Shown: positions 7,152 to 33,175 of the stretch, one piece after another
How the letters are laid out: each line of letters begins with the position of its first letter
How positions within the stretch are numbered: the stretch's first letter is position 1
From: Lachnospiraceae bacterium
GTDB taxonomy: Bacteria; Bacillota; Clostridia; Lachnospirales; Lachnospiraceae
NCBI GenBank assembly: GCA_030524705.1
Contig: JAUNGD010000016.1
Location: forward strand, 1-59,375
Length of the DNA stretch: 59,375 nt
Reading direction: 5' to 3'
Notes under the pieces: generated by a model
What the model was told of the DNA's origin: nothing
The model's database searches: none
What the model saw: the letters and a program-made list of their open reading frames with translations, nothing else
Position numbers and translations under genes: made by a program

Positions 7152-8663
7152 TCATTTATTCAGATATTCTTCCGCCCGCGCCTCGCCGCCTTCAAAGGCC
7201 AGCTTCATATAATAAGCCGCATCCTCTTCATCTGACAAAAGAGGATCATTCCGAAAGATCAGCCCCAAATAATAATGCGCCTCCGGCGTCCCTGCCTTTT
7301 CAAACCATTCTGCCGCATTGAGCATATTTTGCTTTAGCCCATACCGGCCATTATAATAGCCACGGGCAATCTCCATATACGACGCTATCCTTTCCTCGCC
7401 ATTTTCCCCACTTCTAAGCTGAAAAGCAAAATATTTTTTATACGGCAGAATCTCCATATAAAAATATCTTTTTCCACTCTTTTTATCATAATAGCTTTTT
7501 CTCGGAACCAGCTTACAGGTCTCTGGATCAATAATATATTTATAGTTTCCTTCCTCATTTGCCCGGAAAATCGTCATTTTGCTTCCTTTTTCCTCAATCG
7601 TCTTATACTCCATCGCCATCGGCTTCTTACCGATTTTTATAATGTCCTTATACATAAACCCTACATTAATTATAACGATATTTTTATTCGGCATAAAAGT
7701 AAGCACCTCCAGAGGATTCCCTTCATGATCCGGCTCCCGACAATAAAAGGTCCTTCTCCTGATCCCATTCCCGAGAATCTCCAATTCATCCTCCAGCTGT
7801 TCCGCATCAAAAATAACTCGGTATTCCGGCTCCAGGATTTTCTTGCTTACCATAAAAACCATTGTGTCCGCGCCCTCTGTTTCCGTCAGTGTAAAATATC
7901 TCTTCGCGTCATCCACACTATCTGACTCTTCTTCAGTATCCCAGTTTTCGCCATCCGGCTCTTCTTCGTCGTCCCAGCTTTCATGATCCGGTTCTTCTTC
8001 ATCGTCCCAATCCTCGTCCTCCTCTTCGCCGGATGCAAATATATCTACCACTCGTTCTGCGATGCGGTCGAGAAGCTTCCTTCGGAAAGGATTGAGTTCC
8101 TCCTCATTCTGCTCTGCGGCTCTGCTGCCAAATAATTCATCAAATTTTGCATCCAGCTCTTCATCTATGTTGAGCAGCCTTTCCCATCCCTCTTCTAATC
8201 CTTCCATTTCGGATCCTTCGAAATCGTCCCAATGTTCCGCTGTTTTTCCAAGGCCCAGAATATACTTTTCAACACGGGAAGCAAGCCTGCCGATTATCTC
8301 ATCACCCTGCATATTCGGTACCGTCAGTCCGTGGAGGTTTGACAGATAATAGTACAAAGACGCATTCGGCTCCGTTTCATCCAGCTTTACAGAAATAATT
8401 TTAACATCATTTTGCAGGGCGATATTAATTTCTTTTACCACCTGGGATGACCGGTTAGAATTCTGCGTAAAAATAAAAATCATTACCTTTGAGTTTTTGA
8501 TGGCCTCCGTAATCTCTCCCGCCCATTCCAACCCATAAGGAATATCCCGGGGTGCTATCCAGCAGCCCAGCGCTTCTTCTCTCTCAAATATCTCACACAA
8601 ATGCATCGCAAAATCTGCATCCTTACTGGAATGACTGATAAAAACATTCTTTTCTTTACTCAT
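7152..8663 (-). CDS. TIR-domain protein with acidic linker and Sel1-like tail
   Basis: The first 135 residues form a TIR_2-type domain: NVFISHSSKDADFAMHLCEI, the GCWIAPRDIPYG box, SKVMIFIFTQNSNRSSQVVKEI (with a Glu at the position of the catalytic Glu of TIR NADases) and IISVKLDE. Next comes a long, extremely acidic Asp/Glu/Trp linker (about 210-262) with near-repeats of DWDDEEEPD, then a beta-rich unassigned domain (about 265-420) and a C-terminal Sel1/TPR-like segment (YYNGRYGLKQNMLNAAEWFEKAG, EAHYYLGLIF). It is the last gene of the 26-kb block, overlaps the upstream 49-aa ORF by ATGA, and is a candidate NAD-consuming or scaffold effector. Confidence 0.85.
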   Translation of the reverse strand: MSKEKNVFISHSSKDADFAMHLCEIFEREEALGCWIAPRDIPYGLEWAGEITEAIKNSKVMIFIFTQNSNRSSQVVKEINIALQNDVKIISVKLDETEPNASLYYYLSNLHGLTVPNMQGDEIIGRLASRVEKYILGLGKTAEHWDDFEGSEMEGLEEGWERLLNIDEELDAKFDELFGSRAAEQNEEELNPFRRKLLDRIAERVVDIFASGEEEDEDWDDEEEPDHESWDDEEEPDGENWDTEEESDSVDDAKRYFTLTETEGADTMVFMVSKKILEPEYRVIFDAEQLEDELEILGNGIRRRTFYCREPDHEGNPLEVLTFMPNKNIVIINVGFMYKDIIKIGKKPMAMEYKTIEEKGSKMTIFRANEEGNYKYIIDPETCKLVPRKSYYDKKSGKRYFYMEILPYKKYFAFQLRSGENGEERIASYMEIARGYYNGRYGLKQNMLNAAEWFEKAGTPEAHYYLGLIFRNDPLLSDEEDAAYYMKLAFEGGEARAEEYLNK

Positions 8664-8809
8664 GGAAAAACCTCTCCGACACCCAAATTTTCAAAACGGC
8701 GATGAAGGCCTTCCGCTTCACGGTACATACTCTCCGCTTCATCTAACCGTCCCATCTCAGCTTCTTCCTTATACCTTTTAAAAAGCAGATCACAAGCTAC
8801 TAAGCTCAC
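8660..8809 (-). CDS. Small 49-aa TPR-like ORF bridging the DUF4062 and TIR genes
   Basis: A GTG-started frame (8807-8809) overlaps the last 20 bp of the DUF4062 gene, runs 49 codons and ends with a TGA that overlaps the TIR start (CCATGA). The product looks like real protein, with a helix-turn-helix repeat such as EEAEMGRLDEAESMYREAE, which resembles the TPR units ending the DUF4062 protein in the next frame over. It may be a separate coupled small protein, or the true C-terminus of the DUF4062 protein reached by a frameshift (natural, programmed or an assembly error). There is no strong ribosome site for the GTG. Confidence 0.5.
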   Translation of the reverse strand: MSLVACDLLFKRYKEEAEMGRLDEAESMYREAEGLHRRFENLGVGEVFP

Positions 8810-10373
8810 GGCTTATACGCAAAGATTCCCGATATAGTTTTACCGCCCCTTCTTTCTTATTCATTTTCTCCAAACACCTGGCCAAACCAACGCTATACAA
8901 CGCCTCTCCTTTTTTATAATCATCATTTGAGGAATCCGCTTCAACCAATATACGACATCTTTTTAACGCCCGGCATAGTAGCCTTGCTGTTTTTCTCAAG
9001 GTGCCCGAATCTCTTCGTAGGTCTGCAAAACTCAGATAAGCATAAGATAGCGCAATCATCTTTCCCTCATTCACTGCTGTTCCTTCATCCAACACTTTCT
9101 CATAATATTCCAACACTTCTGTTAATAATGCCTCTGCCTTTTCATCATTTGGACTCCATAGATAAAGCATTCCTAAAAAATACTTTGCCCAAACAAGATC
9201 GAATTGCTCAATCGCCTCCGAATCCTGATATTTTGCCAATCGTTCTAATATATTGATTGCCTTTTCATCTTCATGCTGCCGCCACAAAAAATCCGCATAC
9301 CATAACAGCACATCCAACTCCACCCGATACTTTTCCGCCAGCCTTACGCTTTCTTCATAGCACGCCTGAATCTCCGGAATTGTCTCCAGTGTAATTCCCC
9401 GGGACTCCAGCGCAGAGATACGCATCCTGTTCTCTGAAATATATCCCCGGATCCGCTCTTTTCCGTTCTCCACGATTTTCTCCGCATGGGCCAGCTCCTT
9501 TTGGCGCTCCTCATCCCTGAGAATCGCCAGCGCCCCTTCATAGTCTCCCTGGTCCAGCAGCCGGCCCGCCATTTTTTCCCGCCGGGTCATCGGCCGGTCT
9601 CCGCTCCTGAGCTCTGCAATGGTTGTATACAGATTTAAAATATTGCTTTCCATCTGCCGTATCTGCTCTGACAGCTCATTCCGCTGCCGGGATACCTCCA
9701 TCAGCCGTCCAAATATCTCCTCGTCTTCCGGAGCTTCTATACTGGCACGCCGCAAACGCACAAACTCCTCCTCCAGCCGTGCCTTTTCCTCGCTCCTTCG
9801 CTGCAGCTCTTCATTCTGGCTGTATATCGGCACATGCTCCAGAGAGAGGAGCTTCCTGCCGTCAAGCACAGCCTGTCCATTCTCGAACTGAAGCTTGCCG
9901 GATATTTCTTCTCTGCGGGTCAGCTCAATCAGAATATTCAGCTTAATAGAATCAAGATGCGTGAACATGCTGAAATAATGTCCTATCTGCTTATCCAGCC
10001 GCTCCATAAAGTTCAAAACGCTTTCTGACGCCTGTTCTCCCCCGGGAAGCTGCTTAAAATACGTATAAATATGAGGCGCTCCGCTTTCTCTGAATTTTTC
10101 CAGAGCCACATCAAACTCCTCTATCGTGTATTCTCCGGCTTCTTTTCCCAAAAGAATATAGAAAAACTGGCTTTCTCTGATTTTTTCGTTGTATTCCTCC
10201 TGCTTGCGCTCCTTTGCAACCGCATTCGACAGATCCTCGCAGATCGTCAATTCAAAATAGATCCCCCGCTGTACGTAAATATCATTCAGCGCCCGAATGT
10301 AATTGCCAAGCTCTTCACGCTCATGTTTAAATTCAACAATAGATGATGCAAGAAAAAATTTGATAACCTTCAT
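8790..10373 (-). CDS. DUF4062 protein with coiled coil and TPR region
   Basis: The 527-aa product begins MKVIKFFLASSIVEFKHERE, the DUF4062 signature (a Rossmann-like/SIR2-TIR-related domain seen at the N-terminus of prokaryotic conflict proteins). It includes YFELTICEDL and SQFFYILLGKEAGEYTIEEFDVA. A long charged coiled coil follows (about 175-320), then a TPR-like helical repeat region to the end. I chose ATG 10373 because GGAG lies seven nucleotides upstream; the longer frame to 10619 reads into low-complexity, non-protein-like sequence. The gene is in the middle of the block, between Sel1 and TIR genes, which suggests a sensor/scaffold role. Confidence 0.8.
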   Translation of the reverse strand: MKVIKFFLASSIVEFKHEREELGNYIRALNDIYVQRGIYFELTICEDLSNAVAKERKQEEYNEKIRESQFFYILLGKEAGEYTIEEFDVALEKFRESGAPHIYTYFKQLPGGEQASESVLNFMERLDKQIGHYFSMFTHLDSIKLNILIELTRREEISGKLQFENGQAVLDGRKLLSLEHVPIYSQNEELQRRSEEKARLEEEFVRLRRASIEAPEDEEIFGRLMEVSRQRNELSEQIRQMESNILNLYTTIAELRSGDRPMTRREKMAGRLLDQGDYEGALAILRDEERQKELAHAEKIVENGKERIRGYISENRMRISALESRGITLETIPEIQACYEESVRLAEKYRVELDVLLWYADFLWRQHEDEKAINILERLAKYQDSEAIEQFDLVWAKYFLGMLYLWSPNDEKAEALLTEVLEYYEKVLDEGTAVNEGKMIALSYAYLSFADLRRDSGTLRKTARLLCRALKRCRILVEADSSNDDYKKGEALYSVGLARCLEKMNKKEGAVKLYRESLRISRELSSL

Positions 10374-10411
10374 ATCCATTCTCCTTCGCCACTCTGCCAT
10401 TCCAAAGCACC

Positions 10412-10807
10412 CTACAGATCCATTTCCACGGCCAGGCCGGAAGCATAACAGAAATCCAGCTCTGCCTGTGCATCCTCTATCCCGTTTTCCGCCGCCAGCC
10501 GCAGCCATTTTATTGCTGTCTGCAGATCCCGTTTCAGTCCTGGGCTGCCCCAGAGGTAATGTATCCCGAGAATCCACTGGGCTTCTCCGTCCCCCTGCTC
10601 TGCCGCGCGCTGATACCACTGAAATGCCCTGGCCTTATTTTGCTCTACGATACACCCGTAATAAAAGGCGTCGCCCACGCTTCGCTGGGCCTTTGGATCT
10701 CTCTTCTCTGCTTTTGCAAATGCCTCCTCTTCCGTCAGCCTTCTGAAGAGCTCCTTAAAGCTCTTTTCCTGCATTTTCTTGTAAAGCTCTTCTTTCCGTT
10801 CATCCAT
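10412..10807 (-). CDS. Sel1-repeat protein
   Basis: The 131-aa protein contains about two and a half Sel1-like repeats: DPKAQRSVGDAFYYG, ARAFQWYQRAAEQGDGEAQW and TAIKWLRLAAENGIEDAQAE. Such alpha-helical solenoids mediate protein-protein contacts and commonly occur near TIR and DUF4062 proteins in bacterial conflict loci. It is 12 bp downstream of the metallophosphoesterase gene, in the same transcription unit, and has no signal peptide. Confidence 0.85.
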   Translation of the reverse strand: MDERKEELYKKMQEKSFKELFRRLTEEEAFAKAEKRDPKAQRSVGDAFYYGCIVEQNKARAFQWYQRAAEQGDGEAQWILGIHYLWGSPGLKRDLQTAIKWLRLAAENGIEDAQAELDFCYASGLAVEMDL

Positions 10808-10819: not shown

Positions 10820-11719
10820 CTATACGATTTTGATAAGCCGGTCACAGATCACTGTTTCCTTTTCTCCCATGGAAAAGTCTTTGTGATAATGACCGAAAAA
10901 CCATTTCTGATACTCACATCTTTGCTTAATGCCTTCCAGATATTCCGTGAGGGCATTTTCTGCATATTCTGCCCCAAAATACTGGCGCTGCGTACTGCCC
11001 GCGCAGCAATGGCTGAGTATGAAATCCACGTTCCATCCATTTTTTTCCAGATTCTGCAGCCCCTCATCCATTTCTTCCTGCGAGGGCAGTTCCCGTTCCC
11101 ACCAGCTCACATTTCTTATACGGTATGGAATTTTTCGTTTTCTCATCCTGTAGATTTTTTGCTTCAGCATAGGATCCTTCTCCTCCAGAATCACCTCTGC
11201 ATCGTGGGAAGCGGCTCCGCCAAAGACAAAAAATCTCTTTCCGGCGATCTCGTACACCTGCCCCCGCATAAGATGAATAACCGAGGGGGATAGGAACTGC
11301 ACCTTGCCCCCATGCCAGGAGGTGACCGGAAGCTGATCCAGTAAAGCAAAATTCTCATGGTTTCCGTCCAGCCACAGAATCATAAAGGGACGCTCCTCCA
11401 GCCAGCGCAGCCAATATTGCTGCTCCTTTGACGAAGGATCCCAATACCCGAAATCACCTGTTATGATTACGCAGCCGTTTTTTTCTTCCCGGCCCTGCTT
11501 CTGGCCGCTCCGGCTGCTCTGTATCTCTTCCCGGTTCTGCTTCTGGCCGTTCCGGCCCCGGAGCATTTCACGCTGTTCTGGAAAAGAACGATTGCTTAAT
11601 TTTCTGAAATCCCCGTGACAATCCCCGGTCACGTAAACCTTGGAAATAGTACGCTCAGTTTTTTCTATGCACTGTCCGTCCTTAAACGCCTGATTCTCAG
11701 GATTTCCTTTTCCGGTCAT
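10820..11719 (-). CDS. Calcineurin-like metallophosphoesterase
   Basis: The 299-aa protein has the phosphoesterase metal-site motifs in order: VTGDCHGDF (about 29-37), ITGDFGYWD, DGNHENF, a downstream SHCC and the final FFGHYHKD. It is closest in style to PrpE/ApaH-type enzymes, whose substrate could be a phosphoprotein or nucleotide. Between the first and second motifs is a hydrophilic insertion (about 45-80) made of repeated GQKQ(N/G)REE units, absent from ordinary members. The ATG overlaps the stop of an 18-codon frame and has GGGAG nine bases upstream. With a kinase encoded upstream in the block, it may be its antagonist; this is inference. Confidence 0.85.
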   Translation of the reverse strand: MTGKGNPENQAFKDGQCIEKTERTISKVYVTGDCHGDFRKLSNRSFPEQREMLRGRNGQKQNREEIQSSRSGQKQGREEKNGCVIITGDFGYWDPSSKEQQYWLRWLEERPFMILWLDGNHENFALLDQLPVTSWHGGKVQFLSPSVIHLMRGQVYEIAGKRFFVFGGAASHDAEVILEEKDPMLKQKIYRMRKRKIPYRIRNVSWWERELPSQEEMDEGLQNLEKNGWNVDFILSHCCAGSTQRQYFGAEYAENALTEYLEGIKQRCEYQKWFFGHYHKDFSMGEKETVICDRLIKIV

Positions 11720-11837: not shown

Positions 11838-12203
11838 CTATCCTGCGTCCTCACCCTGCGGCAAAAATTTCACCTGCATCCGCTCTCCTTCAGGAACCAG
11901 ATAATATCGTTTTCCACCTGAAATAAATATAACATACATTCGTTCAAGATTCACTTCCTTATACAAATTCTGCAGCTCCTGGGCGCTCAGTTTATCAAAA
12001 TTTGAGGAATCCACCAGAAAATAGTATGTATCCTCATATTTTCCCAAAATCTGAACCCGCACATCCTCCAAATACGTCCCTACCCTGGAGGCCATCTCAT
12101 AGCTTAAATCGCTGCGCTGCAGGTGTCTTGTCCCCAGCAGAACCAACACCAGTGCTGCAATCGTCAATATTACCATGCATCCTATTTTATGTAGTTCCTT
12201 CAT
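11838..12203 (-). CDS. Small membrane-anchored protein of unknown function
   Basis: The 121-aa product has one N-terminal transmembrane helix (about 8-25, CMVILTIAALVLVLLGT) and an outside or inside soluble domain of about 90 residues rich in beta strands (VRVQILGKYEDTYYFLV, MYVIFISGGKRYYLVPEG). I do not recognise the family. It is co-directional with, and between, kptA and the metallophosphoesterase gene; GGGGGAAAG lies before the ATG. Confidence 0.7.
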   Translation of the reverse strand: MKELHKIGCMVILTIAALVLVLLGTRHLQRSDLSYEMASRVGTYLEDVRVQILGKYEDTYYFLVDSSNFDKLSAQELQNLYKEVNLERMYVIFISGGKRYYLVPEGERMQVKFLPQGEDAG

Positions 12204-12214: not shown

Positions 12215-12330
12215 CATTTTACTTCCTTCTTCCTGTTTTACTGCCTCTTTCCCTTCTACTTTCTCTCGTTTTATTCCTTCCTCCCTGTTTTACTGCTTCT
12301 TTCCCTTCTACTTCCTTCCTCTCATTTTAC
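12215..12330 (-). repeat. Purine-rich tandem repeat, 52-nt period
   Basis: Two nearly identical 52-nt units begin at 12215 and 12267, with a third partial unit from about 12323. On the coding strand they are almost pure purine (AGGAAGGAAG, GAAGGGAAAGA) and fill the kptA-to-next-gene spacer, overlapping the end of kptA. Confidence 0.6.
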
Positions 12331-12865
12331 CTTTTTCCAAATACTCCGCCGGAACCTCCTTCGTCAGCCAGACGCCGTTGACCGACCGGTAAAAAGCATA
12401 GCCCGCCTCATACATCTCTCTGCTGCGGATTTTGTAGATAAAGGGCCTGCCGTGTCTCGCTCCTACCTTGTACGCCGTAATTTCATCCGGCGACAGATGT
12501 ACGTAAAGCCTGCTCATCGCCTTTATTCCTTCGCGGTCTATCGAGGGCACGTTCCTGACTGCCGTTCCGTGCCAGAGATACTCCGGCGGCACGGCGGCCT
12601 CCAGCTCCACGTCCACCGGAACGGAATGCCCCTGGTTTGCCCGGATCAGAGTTTTGTCCCCATTGAAGGAATATCTCTGCTTGCTGTCATTTTCGACGAT
12701 ATACTCCAGCATCTCCTGGGTAAACGGTCTGGTCGCCGCGATCCCTTCCACCAGCTCTGTCACCTTCGCCCATCCATGCTCATCCAGGGTAATCCCGATG
12801 ACTCCCGGATCTGCCCTTAAAATCAAGCTGATAAATTTACTCAATGAAACACTGTTCTTATCCAT
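12308..12865 (-). CDS. kptA: RNA 2'-phosphotransferase (KptA/Tpt1)
   Basis: This family moves the 2'-phosphate of an RNA splice junction to NAD+, giving ADP-ribose 1'',2''-cyclic phosphate. The 185-aa protein has the expected length and motifs: LSKFISLILRADPG, LDEHGWAKVTEL, the IRANQGHS segment, LWHGT, and RLYVHLSPD followed by VGARHGRPF. In most family members the first motif reads LRH; here the His after the Arg is Ala, so activity may be reduced or altered. I use ATG 12865 with GGAGG upstream, overlapping the zincin gene's end by 8 bp. It is embedded in a conflict-like block, not near tRNA-splicing genes. Confidence 0.9.
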   Translation of the reverse strand: MDKNSVSLSKFISLILRADPGVIGITLDEHGWAKVTELVEGIAATRPFTQEMLEYIVENDSKQRYSFNGDKTLIRANQGHSVPVDVELEAAVPPEYLWHGTAVRNVPSIDREGIKAMSRLYVHLSPDEITAYKVGARHGRPFIYKIRSREMYEAGYAFYRSVNGVWLTKEVPAEYLEKGKMRGRK

Positions 12866-13940
12866 TTTTTTCCTCCTCCCCATTTTCCTCCAGATATTCA
12901 AAAATCCTGTCATAATAATCGCAGACTGCTTTTTCGGCGTATTCCCGGGCGTCGTTTTCGCACTCCTGGTCATAGTACCCGCAGAAGTCTTCCGTCCCGT
13001 CTATGTAGCTGCCAAATTCCTCCGCATAACGGCCCGCCTTTTTGAACATCCGCAGGCCCCTCGTCCGGGCGTCCGCGCCGTTGTATGCGTCCACAAGCCT
13101 GTGCTGGTATGCATGGTAAGCTTCATGGCACACCGTTTCCAGCAGCTCATACGCCTGAGTCTCTGAGATCTGGTCAAGATTAAGGATAATCTCATGGGTA
13201 TTGTCATTATAATAGCCCAGAAGGCTTTCGTCCAGATTGGCGGCCCCCACATTCAGCTCATGGGGCAGCCCCAGGTACGTTCTTTCTATATTCGCCGCCG
13301 TCTGCAGGACGTCCAGCCGTTCCTTTACGGACAATTCTCTCCATTCCTTCTCCTGCAGCAGAAGCACCGTATCCATGCTGTTGGAAATATTCTGGGCATC
13401 TGTTGTCACCGCCATTTCCATTGTCCCGGAGGGCCTCAAAACTGCGGAGCCGAAAAGCACGCCTGCGCCAAGCACCAGCAGCATGGCGGCCATACCGGCT
13501 GCACAAGCCGTCTGTATCAGCTGAAGCTCCCGGTTGAGCAGCCTTTTGAACAGCCCCTTTCTCAGACGGCCGTCCCGGATTCTGATCCCCAAAGTCGCTG
13601 CTATACTCCAAAAGGAAAACGTAGCGGCCGGGAAAAAGGCCAGGGCGACCAGCTCCGGCCTGACGTCACGGTAAGCAAGAGCCGTATACCCTCCGTAGGC
13701 AATCAAAAGATTCATGGTCACACTGTAGGCGTTTCTCCGTCTTTTCCTTTCCAGAAGTATGCCTGCCGCCGAGCAGGCCGCCACCATTCCCCAGAGAAGC
13801 TGCTTCGACTGTATGAGGCTAAAGCCCTTCACACACCGAAAGAGCAGATTCTTGTACCAGATCATGGCAATAAGCGCCCAGATGATATGCTCCGTCACAA
13901 ATCTTGTCTGCCCCATTGTATTATAGCTCCGTTTCTTCAT
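12858..13940 (-). CDS. Polytopic membrane protein with a HExxH zinc-peptidase domain
   Basis: The 360-aa protein has about four to five hydrophobic segments in its first 175 residues (for example WALIAMIWY, LLWGMVAACSAAGILL, LVALAFFPAATFSFWS, AAGMAAMLLVLGAGVLFG), then a soluble domain containing HEAYHAYQH at 272-280, a HExxH zincin motif, and later ENDAREYA (about 328-335), whose Glu could be the third zinc ligand. It resembles gluzincin-type membrane proteases but I cannot name the family. It heads the most downstream transcription unit of the block, behind a copy of the shared promoter motif. Confidence 0.75.
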   Translation of the reverse strand: MKKRSYNTMGQTRFVTEHIIWALIAMIWYKNLLFRCVKGFSLIQSKQLLWGMVAACSAAGILLERKRRRNAYSVTMNLLIAYGGYTALAYRDVRPELVALAFFPAATFSFWSIAATLGIRIRDGRLRKGLFKRLLNRELQLIQTACAAGMAAMLLVLGAGVLFGSAVLRPSGTMEMAVTTDAQNISNSMDTVLLLQEKEWRELSVKERLDVLQTAANIERTYLGLPHELNVGAANLDESLLGYYNDNTHEIILNLDQISETQAYELLETVCHEAYHAYQHRLVDAYNGADARTRGLRMFKKAGRYAEEFGSYIDGTEDFCGYYDQECENDAREYAEKAVCDYYDRIFEYLEENGEEEKNG

Positions 13941-14029: not shown

Positions 14030-14413
14030 CTACGAAAATCCCCCCAATATTTCCTTTATCTCCATGGCCGGTATATACGTATCTCCTAATCCGCACTGAT
14101 GAAGCACTTCCATCAAACCATAAAGCTCCTCTTTTCTTTTTACAGTAACCCTCCCATTTTGCTTCTGCTCAATCGCGATCTGACTGACTTCGCTGATAAC
14201 GGAATAACGGATAAAATACTGCTTCAAGGCCGACGGTGAAATCCGTTTCAAATGGCGAAGCACATATTTTCTGAAATATGGGTTCTCCGCATCCTCTTCT
14301 ATTCCATTTTCCAGCAGATATAAAGAAATACCCTGCTCTATTTGCTGCTGTTCCGCTTCAGACACTGCATATACACCCTTTGTTTCCATATAATCCAGAA
14401 TAAACTCAATCAT
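14030..14413 (-). CDS. Hypothetical helical protein
   Basis: A 127-aa, mostly alpha-helical cytoplasmic protein (MIEFILDYMETKGVYAV.., RYSVISEVSQIAIEQKQNG, KRKEELYGLMEVLHQCGLG). I recognise no motif. Its ATG overlaps the TGA of the zincin gene (GCATGA), so the two are translationally coupled and may be partners, for example an immunity or chaperone protein for the protease; that is inference. Confidence 0.75.
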   Translation of the reverse strand: MIEFILDYMETKGVYAVSEAEQQQIEQGISLYLLENGIEEDAENPYFRKYVLRHLKRISPSALKQYFIRYSVISEVSQIAIEQKQNGRVTVKRKEELYGLMEVLHQCGLGDTYIPAMEIKEILGGFS

Positions 14414-15459: not shown

Positions 15460-15546
15460 TTTATTTCCTCCTCTTTCATCATTTGAACTACAATTCCTTC
15501 TCTGCACGATCCAACCCGTTTTCCATCAGGTCGTCCGGCCCGCAGT

Positions 15547-21616: not shown

Positions 21617-21627
21617 AAACAACCCTC

Positions 21628-22947: not shown

Positions 22948-22960
22948 TCCAATCCCTCCT

Positions 22961-23297: not shown

Positions 23298-23474
23298 TCA
23301 GAAAACGTGTACCTTCGGCAGCCGCTTCTGCCGTTCGCCTCCGTGGAAGCCTCCTCCCGGCAGTGTCTCCTGCTGCTCGCCTCCATGGAAGCCTCCGGGG
23401 CAGCCACCGCCAAATAAAGCTGCAAAATTATTGGTTTTCATTGTTTTTGTATTTACGTTCATATTTTTCTTCAT
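23298..23474 (-). CDS. Gly/Cys/His-containing 58-aa peptide, first gene of its unit
   Basis: Starts at ATG 23474 (AAAGGAG just upstream) as MKKNMNVNTKTMKTNNFAAL, a leader-like half, followed by a C-terminal half FGGGCPGGFHGGE plus a second GGGFHGGE copy and KRLPKVHVF. Two near-repeats of (P)GGxFHGGE(Q/R)Q are visible in protein and DNA. The leader-plus-repeat-core design recalls ribosomally made peptides, but there is no maturase in the window. It follows the shared block promoter motif directly. Alternatives are a structural or metal-binding peptide. Confidence 0.6.
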   Translation of the reverse strand: MKKNMNVNTKTMKTNNFAALFGGGCPGGFHGGEQQETLPGGGFHGGERQKRLPKVHVF

Positions 23475-24980: not shown

Positions 24981-24983
24981 TTG

Positions 24984-25910: not shown

Positions 25911-26216
25911 TTATGCGTCTCTTTTCTTGATCACGTATCCCATTTTAACGATCAGCTTCAGCGTCTCCAGCGCTGTATTCCGGTCATATTCCTTTTCGCT
26001 TTCCGGCAAGTCCCGGTAGGGGAGCAGCAGCGGAGTCGTTTTCTTTTCCGCATCCTTCACCGGGCCGTAGGTCCATCCCTCTGCCATGCGGCCCACCGCC
26101 CATACATCGTGGACATTCTCTGCGATCCGTTCCGTCAGCTTCAATAAATTCTCTGGCAATAACACGTCCCTTGTATCGATGGGCGTCGGTCTGTAATTTT
26201 TCTCCATTTTTGTCAT
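25911..26216 (-). CDS. Stand-alone RyR domain protein
   Basis: The 101-aa protein is one complete RyR (ryanodine-receptor repeat) domain: YRPTPIDTRDVLLPENLLKL, then ENVHDVWAVGRMAEGWTYGP, LLLPYRDLPESEKEYDRNTA and MGYVIKK. In animals these domains flank the ryanodine receptor channel; prokaryotic versions occur in predicted signalling and conflict systems, possibly binding a nucleotide or phospho-ligand. Its ATG overlaps the TGA of the kinase fusion gene (GCATGA), whose last codons hold its AAGGAGG ribosome site, so the two proteins are made in coupled amounts. Confidence 0.92.
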   Translation of the reverse strand: MTKMEKNYRPTPIDTRDVLLPENLLKLTERIAENVHDVWAVGRMAEGWTYGPVKDAEKKTTPLLLPYRDLPESEKEYDRNTALETLKLIVKMGYVIKKRDA

Positions 26217-29200
26217 GCCTCCTTCATAAGCTCCACCAGCACGACGCCGATATTTTCAATTTTGCTCTGTGCCGATATGGTTTTAATATTCAGCTGCGCG
26301 CCCCGGCTGCGCTGTATCCGGTTCACATCATTTACGTTCTCGTCTCCGTGCCTGTAGGTATTTCCCACCAGCACCTTCACCGTCCCAATGCCGAAATGCT
26401 CCGCTATGCTGTCCAGCTTGTAATAATACGCCGCTTCCAGCTTCTGCACCGCCTTGCACTCCACGATCATAGAGCGGAAGCCCTTTGTCAGGATGAGATC
26501 CAGCTCGTTTTTCACGCCTCCGTCCTCCCACCGGAATTCATAGCCGCAGGCCACATCATCGAAATACCCGGTCTTAAGCACCTGGTCATAAATGTAAACC
26601 TCCAGAATTTCTCCGGCAGAGGTAAGAAGTCTCTTTATCCCCTGAAAAACGTATGTAAAGCTGGCCAGCTTCGGATTCTGCGGATCCCGGGTAAGACGGC
26701 TGATATAACCGGCCTCCTGCAGCTTCTGCAAAACAAGATACGAATAGTCCTGCATTCCCCTTCTGTCCGGGTCAAGATTGACCCCCGTCACATCGGGACT
26801 GCTGCACCGGATTTCGACGTACTCCTCATTATAATTCCTTCTTTTTGTCACCTCGATCCCGTAATACCCAAGCAGAAGCTGAGGCTGCGAAAACAGGCGG
26901 CCAAGCGGTTCCGCCAGGGAAGCATCCACCAGAAGCTCCAGCCTGCAGGTCTCATTCGTATAGCAGACCAGCTCCGAGCTGTCCTCCACCGCCCCGAAGG
27001 CGATCAGCTTTGCAAGGATATCCTTCACCGTCTGAAACGTATATTCCGGCAGGAAATAACGCAGCTTTTTCTTTACACCGGAACGGGACGTACCCAGCGG
27101 AAGCAGAGCCAGGGGCTCCCGGGACTCCTCATACGCTTCCAAGGCGTCACAGAGCCGGTTCCAGTTGCCGACCCCCTCCTCGAATTGATTCGCAGGCAGA
27201 TAATTTCCCGTATAGATTCCCCACAGGGTTTCATAATCCTCCGCGAATTCAGGGAACCGCATCCTGGTATCCGCAGCGTTCATCAAAGAAAACATATCGC
27301 TGATACGGATATGGGAATTATCCTTTATGAACTGCAGATAATCGCAGGAAATATGCTTCGTAAACGTCTTGCGCTTCCAGTCAAACTCAAAGTACGGCAC
27401 GCCGTCTCCGGTAAGCCTGCCGATCCATGCGGCATTGTCCAGGGCCGCGGGAAACAGCCGGGTACTGCCGTCGTACAGATCCGGCCTCCATTGTCCAAGG
27501 CGGAGGAAAAATTCTTCGGAGGCGTCGCTGCCGTCCTCGCAGTCAAACAGCTCATACTCCGTCAGCGCCGCATGGGTGCGGTCCGAATCACTGTTTTTTT
27601 GCTGCTCCAGCGCCTTTTTCAGCTCCTTCCTCCGGCCCTCCTCCACATCTCTCTGGCATGCGGCCGTAAAGGTAACCTTGCATTGGATTCTGCGTTTATT
27701 CAGATAATTCAGCACTGCAGAAATTTTGTGAATCAGCAAATCAACGTCCGTGCTCCGGTCAAAATAATACAGGTAACACAATTTCTCAGGACTGAGTACG
27801 GTGGCCGCCCCCACATCAGCAAAGGCCGCCTCATTGCGCCCGTTCTGATACTTCCCATCTTCAAAGGCCATAGCGATGCAGGGACGCAGGCGGCAGGTCA
27901 GAATGAAAGGAAGCTTCTCTACCAGCACCTGGTCGTTCGCTTTATAATCCCGGTACAGGTTGGCTTCTATCACCGGATAAAACGCCCGGAATATCAGAGG
28001 CAGTCTCTCCTCTGCCTGATTTTTTATTTCAACGGACGTCCGCTCCAGAGAATCCCGGAGCATTCCCTCATAATAGTGATACTGCCTTGTATAGCCCTCT
28101 GACCCGTTCAGAATGTTTTTCAGGCAGAACCGAAACTGCCGGTATGCCCGGATTACCTCCTCGTCCTCCTCCGAGATCAAATGCCAGAGGGCTTCCAGAT
28201 CCTGACTCTGCAACGGGTTTGTTTTTTTGAATTTCTCCGCGTAAAGCCGGCAGCACTGATGCAGCTCGACAGACATACGGTCCAGCTCGTCAAGGCCCGG
28301 ATCAATATTCGGATCGTCCCATTTTCTGCGCCCGTCCTTCTGATACTCCGGTCCGCTAAGGGGAGTGGCCTCTGTCCCGAAGAGAATACACAGATGCGTC
28401 AGAAGGTCAGGATTTCTTAAGCTTCTGTTTATGACGCACTCCTCCAGCTTCAGGCGCCCCTTATCATCCCGGGGAGCCGTCCAGCCATCCGTAATCTTGC
28501 TAAGAACCCAGCGCCGGTGCTCCAGCGCCGCCAGTGTGTTAAATTTTTTCTTTGCTTCCGACGCCTTCGGATCAATTTGGGGATCGGCATTTTGGTGCTC
28601 CAAAATCTCTGCCGAAAACAGTCTAGCAGCCTCCAGATTATCCTCCGCCTTAATCCCGACGCTGCGAAGCTTGTATTTGATGGATAATGCGTAATCCAGG
28701 GACGAAACATAATTATACTTATCCTCTCGGAATTTCTGCAGCTCCTCATTCACATCGATATTCAGCGAACTGTTCCAGGAAAGATGCGTATGAAAGGCAA
28801 GCTGTTCCAATTTCAGATCGACATTCTCCGATGTAATTGGTTCGTTGATACACACAGGATACAGCCTGGCGGCCTGGTCTTTTTTCGTCAGTCTCTTTCC
28901 CCGCTGGCTGATGTAGCAGACCGGACACGGATTTTTCGGTTCCCACCCCCGCACTGCCTCCGCAAAGAATTTCGCTGCGCTGTAATTCAAACGGTCGCTA
29001 CCAAGCGCAACAAAAATATAATTGTACGGCCGTTCCTGCACCGCCGCCTGATCGACCAGGGCGGATATTAATTTTTTGTTTTTCTCCGTATCCGACTCGC
29101 AAAGCTCCGTTTCTTCCTCAAGGTCCGCAGCCTCCGACAGAGAAATAAAGTTCAGTGTGCCGTATGCCTTTTCTTCTTTTCCTTCCATGGAGCCGTCCAC

Positions 29201-30586
29201 ATTGACAAATTCGCTTACCGCGGGCCGGCTCTGAAGATAGCTCTCCCGATCCTCTCCCGGCGCTTCGGACACTGCCTGGATGTGCAGCGAAACTCCCTTC
29301 ATCTGTCCTGCCTGAAGGCAAAGATCAATAAATTTCTGTCTGTAAGGCCCTGAGCCCGCCACCAGCACATGGATGGCTTTCGCATCCTCCGGCAGCGCTT
29401 CATACAGCGGATGCTCATACAGCAGCTTCTGCATCACGATCACAGGATCGGCGCTTCCCCTCTTATTTTTTTCCACAATAGCCAGTTTTTTATTCGGCCC
29501 GATCAGCTTTGGGCTGACCGCATACTGCTTCGCCCGGATTTCTGCGGATTTCAGATCCTCCAGCAATGCGCTGCAGCTTTCGTATCGGTTTTTCGGACTT
29601 CGCGCCAGACATTTTTTCAAAATATTAGTCAGCTTTGTCATCAGGCCGACGTCCGCGCCGGCCTGCGAAGCGGCAATCAGCCTGGAATGTCTCACAAGCC
29701 GGCCAATCTCTTCAAAATACGCATCGCAATATACGCCCTCCGGTATATCCTCTGAAATTACAATGGCGTTGAAAAGCATCGCCCCGATGGAATAAATATC
29801 CGAACGGTTGTCCACTTTTCCCTTCAGGACCTCCGGGGCCTGATAGCCCGGGGTTCCCGCCGCCGGCAAAACGCCGCTCTTTACAGAATACAGCGTATTA
29901 ATATCAAACATCGAGATACTGTTTGCATTCATGCCGTATTCGCTGTCGTAGAGCACGAGAAAATTCGACGGTTTAATGTCCAGATGCATAAGTCCCGCCG
30001 TATGAAGGGCTTTCACGCAGTCAGCCACAGTGACCGTTGTCTGCAGGATCTCATGCAGACGATAATCCGCCTTTCTCTCCGGCGCGCCTCTGACCTCCTC
30101 CAGGTACCTGTCGAAGCCCTGCCCCGCCAGTCCCGGCGACCAGACATATACCGTCGCCCTCTTTGTCTCTTCCCCGGAGCACCCATACAGAATTTCCCCA
30201 TTTTGGATATAATTCTTCAGCACCTGATTGTAAGGGTTGTCCGCCATCACTTCATTTAAAAGGCGGTATGTATCCAGATACTCCCGGCTCATAGCCTCAA
30301 AATCAGAGGTATCCTTCTCATCCAGAACGAGCTGCCCATTGTCCAGCCGTCTCAGCAGAGGACAGCGGCCCGGATTGGCAGCGCTTTTCATTGGGTAAAA
30401 CTCCTTCAGCTTACCGGTCTGTCCGTCCCTCTCCCGCACCGCCTCATAGCAGACCGAAGAGCTGCCCTCGCCCACAAAGGAGCGTATGATGTATTTTTCC
30501 GGTATACTGCCCTCCGGCCTGACCGACAGAAAAACTGACCGGCCGTTTTCCAGATAACTTCTCTTTTCTTCCATAAATACTCTCAT
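26213..30586 (-). CDS. Ser/Thr kinase - Rossmann - RyR-like - PD-(D/E)XK nuclease fusion
   Basis: A 1457-aa cytoplasmic protein. An N-terminal Hanks-type kinase (about 35-355) has G-loop VGEGSSSV, the Lys in LKEFYP, the catalytic loop HLDIKPSNF, a metal loop FDINT (Asp kept, Phe/Gly changed) and APEVL. Then comes a Rossmann/TrkA-N-like domain starting IHVLVAGSGPY (about 410), and an RyR-like segment LAALEHRRWVLSKITDGW (about 690). A long unassigned middle follows, and the C-terminus is a PD-(D/E)XK nuclease of Card1/DUF1887 type: ELDLILTKGFRSMIVECKAV and YYKLDSIAEHFG. ATG 30586 is chosen because the promoter motif overlaps the longer start at 30631. It heads the kinase-RyR unit. Confidence 0.88.
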   Translation of the reverse strand: MRVFMEEKRSYLENGRSVFLSVRPEGSIPEKYIIRSFVGEGSSSVCYEAVRERDGQTGKLKEFYPMKSAANPGRCPLLRRLDNGQLVLDEKDTSDFEAMSREYLDTYRLLNEVMADNPYNQVLKNYIQNGEILYGCSGEETKRATVYVWSPGLAGQGFDRYLEEVRGAPERKADYRLHEILQTTVTVADCVKALHTAGLMHLDIKPSNFLVLYDSEYGMNANSISMFDINTLYSVKSGVLPAAGTPGYQAPEVLKGKVDNRSDIYSIGAMLFNAIVISEDIPEGVYCDAYFEEIGRLVRHSRLIAASQAGADVGLMTKLTNILKKCLARSPKNRYESCSALLEDLKSAEIRAKQYAVSPKLIGPNKKLAIVEKNKRGSADPVIVMQKLLYEHPLYEALPEDAKAIHVLVAGSGPYRQKFIDLCLQAGQMKGVSLHIQAVSEAPGEDRESYLQSRPAVSEFVNVDGSMEGKEEKAYGTLNFISLSEAADLEEETELCESDTEKNKKLISALVDQAAVQERPYNYIFVALGSDRLNYSAAKFFAEAVRGWEPKNPCPVCYISQRGKRLTKKDQAARLYPVCINEPITSENVDLKLEQLAFHTHLSWNSSLNIDVNEELQKFREDKYNYVSSLDYALSIKYKLRSVGIKAEDNLEAARLFSAEILEHQNADPQIDPKASEAKKKFNTLAALEHRRWVLSKITDGWTAPRDDKGRLKLEECVINRSLRNPDLLTHLCILFGTEATPLSGPEYQKDGRRKWDDPNIDPGLDELDRMSVELHQCCRLYAEKFKKTNPLQSQDLEALWHLISEEDEEVIRAYRQFRFCLKNILNGSEGYTRQYHYYEGMLRDSLERTSVEIKNQAEERLPLIFRAFYPVIEANLYRDYKANDQVLVEKLPFILTCRLRPCIAMAFEDGKYQNGRNEAAFADVGAATVLSPEKLCYLYYFDRSTDVDLLIHKISAVLNYLNKRRIQCKVTFTAACQRDVEEGRRKELKKALEQQKNSDSDRTHAALTEYELFDCEDGSDASEEFFLRLGQWRPDLYDGSTRLFPAALDNAAWIGRLTGDGVPYFEFDWKRKTFTKHISCDYLQFIKDNSHIRISDMFSLMNAADTRMRFPEFAEDYETLWGIYTGNYLPANQFEEGVGNWNRLCDALEAYEESREPLALLPLGTSRSGVKKKLRYFLPEYTFQTVKDILAKLIAFGAVEDSSELVCYTNETCRLELLVDASLAEPLGRLFSQPQLLLGYYGIEVTKRRNYNEEYVEIRCSSPDVTGVNLDPDRRGMQDYSYLVLQKLQEAGYISRLTRDPQNPKLASFTYVFQGIKRLLTSAGEILEVYIYDQVLKTGYFDDVACGYEFRWEDGGVKNELDLILTKGFRSMIVECKAVQKLEAAYYYKLDSIAEHFGIGTVKVLVGNTYRHGDENVNDVNRIQRSRGAQLNIKTISAQSKIENIGVVLVELMKEA

Positions 30587-30626
30587 CCTCTTCTTCCGTT
30601 TCCTCCTTTTCTTCTCTGATACGACA

Positions 30627-30678
30627 ACCATATCAGATACTTTTTTCTCAGAGAGAGGGGGGAAGGTGTTTTCCGCCT
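30627..30678 (-). promoter_or_regulatory. Shared block promoter motif, copy K, before the kinase gene
   Basis: Minus strand: GCGGAAAACACCTTCCCC leads into a C6 tract (30657-30662), then exactly 24 nt to TATGGT (30627-30632). If used, transcription starts downstream of the long-frame ATG at 30631, so translation must begin at 30586 or later. Confidence 0.6.
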
Positions 30679-30706: not shown

Positions 30707-33175
30707 TTATTTTCCATTTTCGACAATATAAAAATAAAGAGACAGCAGCACATACATATCAAGGATATTTTTTTCGCTCAAGGGCTGAAAACGGCATTCC
30801 CTCAGAATCGGATTGACAGAGGAAGTAAAATCATCGTACAGCTCCGAAAAGCTCTCTATTTCCTCGTCCTGAAGCTTCACAACGTAATAGCTCATGCAGG
30901 CCGCAATGAGGGTGCTGCGGCTGACCCTCCTGCTCTGGGGCAGCTCCGCTTCCATTATTTCTCCCATTTGCCGCAGAAGAACCGCTTCATCCGGTCCTTT
31001 TATACAGGAAATCCTTTGCATCACACGATTCAGCCTTTCGTCCTGATACCTTCTGCTTCCCAGATAAAACATGCTGTCCCCGTTTTTGTCCGGTATCTGA
31101 TGAACGTCAAATCCCATCTGCCAGAGCTGCTTCGCTCCCTTCAGGATCATCAGCCCGTCTATGGTGACATCCGTTTTTTTCACAATATTTTTCAATGCTT
31201 CTATTTTGACAGGGTAATCGGCGGACGAATTATAATACAGGGCATAAAGAAGAGCCGCAAAAAACTTCTTTTTTCTGATCCCGAGCCAGTTTATCTCGGC
31301 CGAAAGCCTCGCATCAAGATTGTTGACCACACGGATAAAATCTTTTTCCTCTGCGTATTCCCTCCGCAGCGCATCCGCCAGCTTCCAGTCAACCGCGAGA
31401 TTATTTACAAATGCCGCTTCCTCTGTATAATCGTCTGTCGGGTAATCCGAATCCAGAGCAAGTGTCTGAGCAATATTCACAGAGTCCGCGTAAACCTCCT
31501 CCAGCTCCTCCATGATTTTCTTTATCCGCTTATTGGCTGTGTTTGTTTCAGCCGAAATCCTGGTTCTGGAACCAGACAGAGTCCCGGAAGGCACCCTGAC
31601 CAGATAATTTTTCAGAATGTAATCCGGCAGTTTTTTTTCTGGAAGCCGAAGCACCTCCGTGACATATCTTTCTTTATACGTTAGGGTAGACCCCGGCAGA
31701 GCTTCCGGCAGTAGCGCTCCCGGCTTCTGCGCCCGGGCGATGCACCTGTCAATCATCCTCTCCGCCCGGGCGATCCGCTCCCCGGGCGTCAGCTTCCATT
31801 CTTTATGGTACAGATAATACAGATACACAGCTTCAGCAAAGTTTTTGTAATTTATGCCATCCCCTGTCGGTTCCCTCTCGTAGCTGCTGGCATACTGCGG
31901 ATCGGCATATTCTTCCCGCAGGAAACGGATAAGGTTATCATTGTAATAGTCCTCAAACAGATTTTTTTCTATATCGGTTTCCAAATTTCGGCCGTCTTCT
32001 TCCGAGTCATATGCCTCCATTCTCTGAAGCGACACCGACATGTCGAACATGATTGCAAAATAGTAGAGATACACCCTTGTCTGCCCGTTGTTTGTCTTAA
32101 AATTCCCGGAGGCAAGATCATCGCAGAGCCGCAGCAGCTTCCAATCCTCCCGCTTTTTTTTGCGTACATCCTTTTTGCTCTGTTCATACAGCTCTGCAGC
32201 CTTTTTCACTGTGCCTTTGCTGTTCAGATAGTATGTATTTCCCGCCTGCAGCATAAAATCCGCCTGCAGCAGCTCAAAGAAGGATTCCATCTGCATTTCA
32301 GCCTCTGCCTCCGGCAGCTTTCCTTTTTCATACGCCTCTGCAATTATCCTTAAAATATCAGTTATACCGTATTCCTGAAAAACCGGCAGCCTGTATTTCC
32401 AGCAAAAGCCATATAATGCTTTCTCTGTCTTTTCAGTTATCTGCAGACCCGGAAATCCGCAGCTTTTTCCCTCCGCATCTACTATATCCAGATCAGACGC
32501 CCAGCGCTCCAGCAGCTTTATCATAATCCGAAGAATATCCAGCCTGTTCAGTTCTATCTCCATATGTTCCTTACTAAATATGCCGTCCTCCAGCTTCGAT
32601 ACAGCCAGCGCCAGTTTTTGTTCTTCATCGGAGTCCGCGTATTTATTCCTTTCTTCCTCCGACATTTGTCCTACGGCCCAGGCAAGGATTGCCTCCGTCC
32701 TAAACACTTTCCGCTGAACCCCGCCGCCCAGGACAAATTTTTTTAAGATTGCAGTTCTCACGGTATCTTCTTTATATTCCGGCGCCAGACGGCGTACAAT
32801 CCTCGTCATATAATCTGACGAATCCGGGAAGCTCCTGTACACGTCATGAAAAATTTCCAACAGTTCCTTTTTCCGTTCCGCCCGGTTCGGAACGGCATAC
32901 AGAAGATTCGGATTCTTCAAAAGCGCGTCCGCATCCAGGCCCACCGCCCTGCAGATCTTGACCAGATCATTTTTTCGAAACCTCACATTGTCTTTTTTCG
33001 CCCTTTTCACCGCATCAAGAGCCGTCTTTACATCCTCCCGGCAGTATAAATATTTCAGACCGGAGGATTTCTCCCGGAACTGTTTTTTCATATTTATCGT
33101 AAGATTATCGTTTACCGCAGCGTTTCTGTTCACAGCCCTCTTACCTTCAGCCTCCGCCATTCCTTTGCTTCTCAT
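30707..33175 (-). CDS. Large helical protein of unknown function, first gene of the block
   Basis: The 822-aa product is predicted almost entirely alpha-helical and charged, with no signal peptide or membrane segment. It begins with a Lys/Glu-rich stretch, then KYLYCREDVKTALDAVKRA and FRKNDLVKICRAVGLDADALL, which looks like an HTH or helical-bundle entry, and VYRSFPDSSDYMTRIVRRL. I recognise no family. It is followed by 76 bp and the kinase gene, in the same direction. ATG 33175, nine bases after GAGGGG, is the best of several starts (TTG 33196, ATG 33184). A consensus promoter precedes it. Confidence 0.8.
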   Translation of the reverse strand: MRSKGMAEAEGKRAVNRNAAVNDNLTINMKKQFREKSSGLKYLYCREDVKTALDAVKRAKKDNVRFRKNDLVKICRAVGLDADALLKNPNLLYAVPNRAERKKELLEIFHDVYRSFPDSSDYMTRIVRRLAPEYKEDTVRTAILKKFVLGGGVQRKVFRTEAILAWAVGQMSEEERNKYADSDEEQKLALAVSKLEDGIFSKEHMEIELNRLDILRIMIKLLERWASDLDIVDAEGKSCGFPGLQITEKTEKALYGFCWKYRLPVFQEYGITDILRIIAEAYEKGKLPEAEAEMQMESFFELLQADFMLQAGNTYYLNSKGTVKKAAELYEQSKKDVRKKKREDWKLLRLCDDLASGNFKTNNGQTRVYLYYFAIMFDMSVSLQRMEAYDSEEDGRNLETDIEKNLFEDYYNDNLIRFLREEYADPQYASSYEREPTGDGINYKNFAEAVYLYYLYHKEWKLTPGERIARAERMIDRCIARAQKPGALLPEALPGSTLTYKERYVTEVLRLPEKKLPDYILKNYLVRVPSGTLSGSRTRISAETNTANKRIKKIMEELEEVYADSVNIAQTLALDSDYPTDDYTEEAAFVNNLAVDWKLADALRREYAEEKDFIRVVNNLDARLSAEINWLGIRKKKFFAALLYALYYNSSADYPVKIEALKNIVKKTDVTIDGLMILKGAKQLWQMGFDVHQIPDKNGDSMFYLGSRRYQDERLNRVMQRISCIKGPDEAVLLRQMGEIMEAELPQSRRVSRSTLIAACMSYYVVKLQDEEIESFSELYDDFTSSVNPILRECRFQPLSEKNILDMYVLLSLYFYIVENGK

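Follow-up and report, generated by a model that had tools for sequence, protein, structure and literature searches.

A modular defence-like island in a Lachnospiraceae genome, with a JAB-E1/unfoldase cassette that carries a conserved micro-peptide in the place expected of ubiquitin

The Pup-proteasome system uses a disordered small modifier that has a Gly-Gly near its end and is coupled to AAA+ unfolding, its enzymes being the PafA ligase and Dop and not E1 and JAB proteins; in type II CBASS, Cap2 and Cap3 bring E1 and JAB chemistry into conflict-type loci. Type 6e bacterial ubiquitin-like (Ubl) operons, as characterised in the relevant part of Iyer, Burroughs and Aravind (2006, PMC1779556), encode a polyUbl, a JAB-E1 and an E2/RWD-like protein. 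Here we analyse a block of genes in a 59,375-nucleotide stretch from a Lachnospiraceae bacterium (GenBank assembly GCA_030524705.1, contig JAUNGD010000016.1), the whole of which we call the window. The ordinary part of this block is a modular defence-like island, and the unusual part, which we term cassette B, combines JAB-E1 and an unfoldase with a conserved micro-peptide in the position where one would look for ubiquitin. We tentatively favour a joint reading, one that may well turn out to be wrong, in which the block is a composite island built from autonomous, separately inherited cassettes and the cassette-B peptide is a dedicated JAB-E1 substrate that tags targets for the unfoldase. Since the cassettes occur apart in relatives, we treat the block as an island of autonomous cassettes and not as one 26-kb complex.

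The original prediction had described 22 genes in a row on one strand. The unbroken minus-strand run, with many overlaps or short gaps, is indeed present from 7152 to 33196, although we count 21 genes in it (Table 1). Gaps of 339 bp (ClpP-RyR), 243 bp (peptide-VirD4) and 103 bp (tm77-peptide) interrupt its upper part, the nine genes from tm77 to p127 are all separated by 60 bp or less, and the final genes are spaced 104-200 bp apart. Obviously, the strand run alone means little, because adjoining housekeeping-type genes (upp- and sua5-like, both by eye, and udk-like, by Pfam) are likewise on the minus strand. Most of the predicted domains (TIR, phosphoesterase, KptA, JAB-E1, Clp unfoldase, VirD4-like, ClpP, RyR, kinase and nuclease) were recovered above the curated Pfam cut-offs, as TIR_2, Metallophos, KptA, ThiF, Prok-JAB, AAA_2, T4SS-DNA_transf/TraG-D_C, CLP_protease, RyR (in the 101-aa protein), Pkinase and Card1_endonuc. 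The rest of that list fared less well: the RyR part of the fusion protein, DUF4062 (E 0.011), Sel1 and one zincin (SprT-like) were seen below the cut-off or by eye, a second zincin found no family support in profile searches, and the HerA-like ATPase, under the Pfam cut-off, was recovered by HerA and CedD profiles over part of their length. An Rfam scan of 6400-34000 returned no matches, and promoter and terminator signals in 22900-26300 were no better than in shuffled sequences. Below, G-numbers denote genomes and C-numbers contigs; G685, G693, G694 and G720 are congeners of the source, while G260 (uncultured Lachnospiraceae hRUG856) represents another genus of the same family.

The first gene of cassette B encodes a 58-aa micro-peptide that was missing from the original prediction, as was the recognition of p100 as a copy of the unfoldase N-domain. 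The peptide matches, at 86% over 28 aa, a repeat peptide of G694, which has the form (LPGGGFHGGEQQET)n with a repeat unit of 14 residues, reads off the end of its contig, and contains three full units that differ by synonymous changes only. In G260 the peptide is a 27-aa frame after AAGGAGG, directly upstream of the tm213-domain gene. In all three JAB-E1 cassettes with a readable start (window, G694 and G260) the peptide opens the cassette behind a Shine-Dalgarno-like sequence, and the peptides carry LPxGxF[HN]GG or part of it. The Gly-Gly that we see in common at all three loci is in the peptide. The G260 27-mer aligns with the G694 unit without gaps over 21 residues (ILPGGGFHGGEQQETLPGGGF / LLPVGIFNGGREGQELPSGVF, score 52) and ranks first among the 282 small frames of its contig, the next scoring 26; with the G694 unit as query, none of 20,000 shuffles reached 52. 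Among 820 distinct Shine-Dalgarno-led small frames, LP.G.F.GG occurred at the three JAB-E1 loci only, a count that is descriptive, the motif having been defined from these same peptides. Within the genus sample of 47 genomes the peptide (E<=1e-4, a cut-off picked after the fact) and JAB-E1 (E<=1e-20) were found in the same two genomes, on which this co-occurrence rests. Searched against Pfam, the three peptides gave a best match of E 0.49 and no family. From these comparisons the assignment of the peptide to cassette B is well supported at three loci; that it serves as a tag is what we infer.

Other candidate peptides were rejected. Matches in G700 (E 1.7e-4) and G718 (E 8.7e-4) fall within long unrelated frames or overlap them, and the peptide DNA pattern matched one IMG/VR contig in a proline-rich gene that is unrelated, on the wrong strand and with an in-frame stop. 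Separately, the gut phage-labelled scaffold MT839708.1 bears, at 1932-2592, a standalone JAB gene followed directly by a Shine-Dalgarno-led 63-aa Cys-rich frame that starts MKNETVAAVTLPEGTFNGN, its LPxGxFNG echoing the peptide motif. Viral contigs searched with this JAB protein gave one chance match, and with its peptide none.

Comparison with relatives delimits the cassette. G694:C73 carries Clp (66% identical), JAB-E1 (70%), p100 (70%) and tm213 (55%) in window order, and C68 of the same genome ends in the small repeat gene, after its kinase/nuclease gene. G685 is syntenic to G694 on both sides of the cassette-B site, with flanking proteins 61-97% and adjacent DNA 77-83% identical, and the stretches that correspond to the kinase/nuclease end (G694:C68) and to the DNA just beyond tm213 (G694:C73) are there only 15 bp apart; no JAB-E1 cassette is present at this site of G685, and no JAB-E1 elsewhere in that genome at E<=1e-20. 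Because the G685 synteny joins both contigs, C68 and C73 lie side by side with an unread gap between them, and the empty site in G685 indicates that the genes from the peptide through Clp, JAB-E1 and p100 to tm213 are one insertion/deletion unit. G260 has the core on an 18.7-kb mobile-element-like contig, with the peptide first and then the tm213 domain, JAB-E1 and Clp; this contig also bears Replic_Relax, coupling-protein-type ATPase and methylase genes but no cassette-A gene (cassette A is described below; the other G260 contigs were searched for JAB-E1, the tm213 domain and ClpP). An IMG/VR contig, found with the conserved part of JAB-E1, bears the same element with 82-95% protein identity.

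JAB-E1 is rare in the samples searched. It is present in 2 of the 47 genus genomes (the source and G694), covers both domains in one of 298 others of the family sample (G260) among the matches listed, and was found in none of 390 others of the class sample (E<=1e-30) or 397 others of the phylum sample (E<=1e-25). We rejected the view that it is a common family: 283 of 299 family genomes match at E<=0.001, yet the others listed are confined to the E1 region and its edge (residues 207-413). In plasmids and phages no place covered 80% of the JAB-E1 query, the matches listed being in the E1 region or its edge and one in the JAB domain; the tm213 domain had no match in plasmids, and viral scans with JAB-E1, the kinase/nuclease protein and the HerA-like ATPase recovered no relative. 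A scan of genome contigs with two poorly informative peptide patterns returned only the G260 contig. Matches of the tm213 domain in G221, G258 and G271 (E 0.003-0.009), with no related neighbours, look like chance. In the open-licence literature, outside which most subscription papers lie, we found no paper on the RyR domain in prokaryotic conflict systems and, among the titles listed, none naming such a cassette.

The enzymes of cassette B keep their catalytic motifs. In JAB-E1, which is 38% identical in G260, E63, H119-H121, S129, D132, G253-G256, D354, C398, C401, C516 and C519 are invariant in three sequences; we take these to be the residues of JAB catalysis, the E1 ATP loop, D354 and four zinc-type cysteines, their catalytic roles being presumed. 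The E1 part matches solved structures including those of the peptide-activating MccB and PaaA, besides TcdA, UBA5 and Cap2. The unfoldase is 24% identical to its G260 copy, and its Cys-containing N-domain has no Pfam match. The standalone copy of this domain, p100, is found at the matching place in G694, ends in ...LY/MY, and was not found on the G260 contig; p100 and the N-domain have conserved cysteines, but the C-x3-C-x35-38-H-x2-C signature of the metal-binding protein in type 6e operons was not seen by eye. For tm213 the match to G694 spans residues 79-213, and that to G260 (37%) residues 148-212, the Cys of PY[VI]CW being kept in four of four sequences, two of them near-identical; its C-terminal domain has no meaningful Pfam match. 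The genes are under purifying selection: the ratio of nonsynonymous to synonymous substitution (dN/dS) between the G260 and IMG/VR copies is 0.096 for JAB-E1, 0.126 for Clp and 0.167 for the tm213 domain, and between window and G694 it is 0.075 for JAB-E1, with dS near saturation (dS of Clp was not computable for that pair). Tandem repeats in the linkers of Clp, JAB-E1 and tm213 differ between species (window 19205-19355; stretch L099, 3-100 and 1226-1626).

Cassette A, which runs from p829 to the VirD4-like ATPase, is complete, with its gene order kept, in one other species and partial in three more. On G693:C255 p829-like, kinase/nuclease, RyR, ClpP and VirD4 genes follow the window order and adjoin an FeoB gene. 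G685:C132 has RyR-ClpP-VirD4 without the first two genes, between FeoB (91% identical) and an ATP-grasp-like gene (98%, by eye), and G694:C55 has the same three beside that ATP-grasp-like gene; directly before RyR, at about 1963-2131 of C55, lies a damaged kinase/nuclease gene end (57% over 56 aa, E 1e-16) that reads as the trace of a formerly whole cassette A. The p829 and kinase/nuclease genes of G685 and G694 are located elsewhere, near a pheT-like gene (by eye). Since the order is co-conserved in G693, yet the parts lie apart in G685 and G694, cassette A is a real co-inherited unit that is able to split. The order in G720 is diverged (ClpP-VirD4-p136-membrane zincin-dCTP deaminase-TatD-kinase/nuclease) and again next to the pheT-like gene. 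In G720, genes for an HD protein, an NT5C-like protein and a Cas10/Cmr2-type palm-like protein (by eye, no Pfam match) lie downstream of kinase/nuclease. The region of the pheT-like gene carries different conflict-type cassettes in three congeners (G685:C58, G694:C73 and G720:C49) and suggests an integration hotspot.

Judged by its domains, cassette A is most likely a sensor-kinase-nuclease conflict system. In G685 and G694 the gene immediately preceding kinase/nuclease encodes a p829 homologue (34-35%), and G693 and G261 have partial matches. The 1472-aa protein, present in 5 of the 47 genus genomes including the source (E<=1e-20), has a C-terminal Card1-like PDDEXK nuclease and, by eye, a Rossmann-like and RyR-like middle; the RyR part gave no Pfam match at E<=0.1 and weak BLAST matches to RyR-bearing proteins. 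Standalone RyR copies, 72.5-74.7% identical, are placed before ClpP-VirD4 in G685, G693 and G694. Standalone RyR proteins close to that of the window (Pfam E below 1e-31) also occur in seven other family genomes; no ClpP or VirD4 relative was found in the stretches searched around those loci, and the one in G261 has p829-like and kinase/nuclease relatives. The window ClpP is 66-67% identical to the G685, G693 and G694 copies and 38% to the best other ClpP of the source genome (C47), the best other ClpP in the source and these three congeners being 38-39% identical to it. An accessory-type or variant ClpP is present in five of the five genus genomes, the source included, that have the kinase/nuclease protein; the search covered six genomes picked for cassette parts, the other 42 genus genomes being outside the comparison. 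The VirD4-like ATPase begins at its ATPase domain, without a membrane anchor (by eye), and its copies (60-61%) stand beside ClpP in three congeners.

Table 1. The 21 genes of the minus-strand run, in order of transcription (window coordinates)
Feature	Coordinates	Strand	Evidence or remark
p829, first cassette-A gene	30707..33196	-	no Pfam family
1472-aa kinase/Card1-nuclease protein	26213..30631	-	Pkinase E 2.4e-16; Card1_endonuc E 1.3e-9
standalone RyR domain, 101 aa	25911..26216	-	PF02026 E 3e-34
accessory ClpP	24984..25571	-	PF00574 E 1.3e-47; Ser-His-Asp triad by eye
VirD4-like ATPase	23718..24980	-	PF02534 E 6.5e-35; NF045973 251.2 bits (cut-off 250)
58-aa micro-peptide with GGFHGGEQQETLPGGGFHGGE, Shine-Dalgarno-like AAAAGGAG	23298..23474	-	first cassette-B gene; start at 23474
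tm77, small membrane-type protein (by eye)	22961..23194	-	8-bp overlap with unfoldase gene; no Pfam family
single-ring Clp/ClpB-type AAA+ unfoldase	21628..22968	-	AAA_2 E 8.3e-27; ClpA/ClpB profiles
JAB-E1 fusion	19808..21622	-	Prok-JAB E 2.5e-6 (59-138); ThiF E 1.1e-18 (242-425)
p100, standalone copy of unfoldase N-domain, 100 aa	19495..19797	-	45-46% identical to unfoldase N-domain
tm213	18841..19482	-	membrane-type segment (by eye), repeat linker, C-terminal domain with PY[VI]CW, terminal Gly
ZnTM248	18034..18780	-	zinc-ribbon-like N-terminus and membrane-type segments, by eye; tight run with cassette B in window only
HerA-like ATPase	15547..18027	-	CedD 2.8e-17; HerA_antiphage 5.5e-9; PADLOC HerA 5.7e-12
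putative zincin (zincin2), HETNH by eye, low-complexity N-terminus	14410..15507	-	HExxH by eye
p127	14030..14413	-	overlaps zincin gene by 4 bp; no family match
membrane-type zincin, HEAYH by eye	12858..13940	-	SprT-like E 9.8e-5, below cut-off
KptA/Tpt1 RNA 2'-phosphotransferase	12308..12973	-	PF01885 E 1.1e-42
tm121, small membrane-type protein (by eye)	11838..12203	-	no Pfam match above cut-off
calcineurin-like phosphoesterase	10820..11719	-	PF00149 E 2.9e-9
TPR protein, weak DUF4062	8790..10619	-	TPR_19 E 7.4e-7; DUF4062 E 0.011
TIR protein, weak Sel1 repeat	7152..8663	-	TIR_2 E 5.3e-18

The remaining genes of the island belong to neither cassette. The HerA-like ATPase is a member of a broad family: it has matches in 16 of the 47 genus genomes including the source (E<=1e-10), the others among the matches listed being 25-35% identical, and further relatives sit in WYL-dynamin-dynamin-HerA-HNH loci on Lactococcus and Treponema plasmids. 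Neither it nor ZnTM248, zincin2 or p127 was seen adjoining JAB-E1 outside the window, that is, in the G694 locus and on the G260 contig. Residues 195-357 of the membrane zincin have a 29% match within the G720 ClpP-VirD4-kinase/nuclease locus. The true start of KptA is probably inside the annotated open reading frame, and a 60% homologue is found on G693:C104, where a gene related to the cassette-A protein in its middle and nuclease parts follows some 5 kb downstream. Elsewhere in the window, 35578-42243 encodes a 2221-aa protein with many DUF7507/DUF11 repeats that adjoins a sortase gene, and a large serine recombinase lies on the plus strand at 50560-52143, past two giant genes.

If the peptide is a tag, the work of cassette B could be pictured as follows. 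The JAB domain would cut the peptide, or polypeptide, after the Gly-Gly of LPxGxF[HN]GG, and the E1 domain would adenylate the new C-terminus; the Cys-bearing domain of tm213 may relay the activated peptide, which would then be attached to target proteins. Tagged targets would be recognised by the N-domain of the unfoldase and unfolded, with p100, as a free copy of that N-domain, perhaps acting as adaptor or competitor. The unfoldase of the window may work without ClpP, the latter belonging to cassette A. The peptide may thus be a new kind of protein tag. In its most specific form, the proposal would make cassette B a conjugation system with a processed, unfolded modifier of 14-15 residues that has a ubiquitin-tail-like LPxGxF[HN]GG end, is encoded as a poly-tag in at least one species, is activated by JAB-E1 and is read by a dedicated unfoldase of the Clp type. 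Such a system would stand as a third architecture next to ubiquitin folds and Pup; we consider this form of the proposal doubtful.

Several observations weigh against the tagging proposal. The peptide is carried by three independent loci only, the IMG/VR contig beginning inside it, and the shuffle test is weaker (p 7.5e-4) when the window peptide is the query. The window and G260 peptides do not share the same C-terminus, and many repeats are found in G694 only; in that genome an unread gap separates the contig of the peptide from that of Clp. The usual E1 motif is NLxRQ, and here its Arg is absent (NVATQ / NMSNQ instead), and G260 lacks the Cys found near the ThiF-type catalytic position; thioester chemistry is therefore uncertain. 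The ClpP-docking motif of unfoldases is an [LIVM]-G-[FL] (IGF-type) loop; the window and G694 unfoldases have no such tripeptide after FTSN (in G694 an LGL is present, but far from where the loop lies), and delivery to ClpP is therefore doubtful in the window, whereas the G260 and IMG/VR unfoldases have KRKIGFA at the loop position. As to defence, including any action against phages, domain content is what suggests a possible role of the island.

The main rival explanation is that cassette B resembles systems for ribosomally synthesised and post-translationally modified peptides (RiPPs): the E1 would modify a peptide precursor, by adenylation, thiocarboxylation or cyclisation, and JAB would trim it to a free bioactive or signalling peptide, with the unfoldase acting on the peptide or a complex. 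Shortness and repeated cores are typical features of precursor peptides, and the peptide gene opens the cassette. The E1 domain also matches MccB and PaaA, activators of short ribosomal peptides according to the relevant part of a review of ThiF-type RiPP enzymes (PMC12250964). That review, however, contains 'JAB' nowhere and 'Clp' once, and it gives MccB and PaaA an N-terminal RiPP recognition element (RRE) where JAB-E1 has its JAB half; moreover, no exporter or immunity gene was recognised among the four G260 core genes. We regard this explanation as unlikely. Rather improbable, in our estimate, is a conventional Ubl system whose Ubl or E2 has escaped recognition, in the tm213 C-terminal domain, p100 or the unfoldase N-domain, with the peptide as a separate regulator or JAB-E1 inhibitor. 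A JAB N-terminal to E1 together with a repeat protein recalls the type 6e operons with their polyUbl and E2/RWD-like protein, as the part of PMC1779556 that treats them has it, and the tm213 domain is conserved, with its invariant Cys. The last residue of tm213 is Gly in the window and G694 (...GK[KR]FG), so that a hidden Ubl-like end is possible there, a point against our tagging proposal, yet this Gly is not kept in G260 and IMG/VR (...LRR); p100 ends in ...LY/MY and is not on the G260 contig. At the sequence level, none of the cassette-B proteins and peptides matched a Ubl or E2 family in Pfam, and the candidate domains had no match at E<=5 except one of E 0.2 to an unrelated family.

Two further explanations appear much less probable. 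If the small frame were non-functional, a GC-rich tandem repeat shared by chance, one could point to the tandem repeats in the tm213, JAB-E1 and Clp linkers, but the repeat units vary synonymously only, the frames share their position and their Shine-Dalgarno-like sequences, and the similarity extends to the 27-mer of a different genus, all of which make this very improbable. Least probable of all is the idea that the 22 genes of 26 kb form one integrated, multi-layer immune complex, as the original prediction had held. In its favour are the single strand and short gaps, the presence of parts of cassette A and the whole of B together in two species, the occurrence of the membrane zincin in the G720 locus and, in G693, the proximity of KptA to a nuclease-type relative. 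Nevertheless, it is largely refuted: the cassettes are separable and are found apart in congeners, the HerA-like ATPase and its neighbours do not accompany B in G694 or on the G260 contig, and the gaps of 339, 243 and 103 bp noted above interrupt the run. The co-conserved neighbourhood that had been expected is real for p829, kinase/nuclease, RyR, ClpP and VirD4 in G693, while JAB-E1 and HerA do not go with them as one set; the splitting named as a refutation is seen in G694, where RyR-ClpP-VirD4 is on C55, apart from kinase/nuclease on C68, and JAB-E1 is on C73 beside C68. The JAB-E1 core of G260 was seen in a mobile-element-like setting, on a contig with no cassette-A gene.

Returning to the tagging proposal, if JAB-E1 does act on the peptide as its substrate, some 15 residues of modifier could be enough for a complete tag-and-unfold pathway. 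The beta-grasp fold would then be dispensable for E1 chemistry on protein tags, and RiPP-type and ubiquitin-type enzymology would be linked in a compact four-gene core that is easily reconstituted. For annotation, the lesson is that large defence islands should be split by comparison with close relatives before a system is named.

Both cassettes have parts in common with described systems. Card1-like nucleases and PD-T4-6-like defence kinases find their domain types joined in one cassette-A protein, but here they are fused with a RyR-like/Rossmann-like middle and have RyR, ClpP and VirD4-like partners. Unlike the VirD4 coupling proteins of type IV secretion systems (T4SS), the window ATPase has no N-terminal anchor (by eye), and no relaxase or other T4SS gene is among the Pfam matches of the block. 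As in ClpAP and ClpCP, a Clp-type AAA+ ATPase and ClpP occur in one island, but ClpP is in the other cassette and the window unfoldase has no IGF-type loop and an N-domain of no known family.

In cassette B, the small peptide with Gly-Gly and the AAA+ unfoldase are reminiscent of Pup, although Pfam found no PafA/Dop family member among the 21 block proteins. The E1 and JAB chemistry in a conflict-type locus is shared with type II CBASS, from which the block differs in having no CD-NTase or E2-E1 fusion among the Pfam matches of its scanned proteins and, among the best 25 of 28 PADLOC families, E1-E2 profiles that match within the E1 part of JAB-E1 and its edge only, and with Bil (BilABCD), as far as the relevant part of PMC11354881 describes it; in contrast to Bil, no BilA Ubl pair or BilB E2 was recognised by sequence, JAB and E1 are one protein, and an unfoldase is present. 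By the features tested, cassette B is neither Pup, Bil nor CBASS. With the ThiF-like RiPP enzymes MccB and PaaA, in the portion of PMC12250964 concerned, it shares an E1-type adenylation domain beside a very short ribosomal peptide, but in place of a recognised RRE it has a JAB domain and an unfoldase. Like the type 6e operons, it has JAB fused N-terminal to E1, a small tandem-repeat partner and a patchy distribution, and it is set apart from them by repeats of 14-residue units in which the sequence test recognised no beta-grasp repeat, and by its Clp-type unfoldase.

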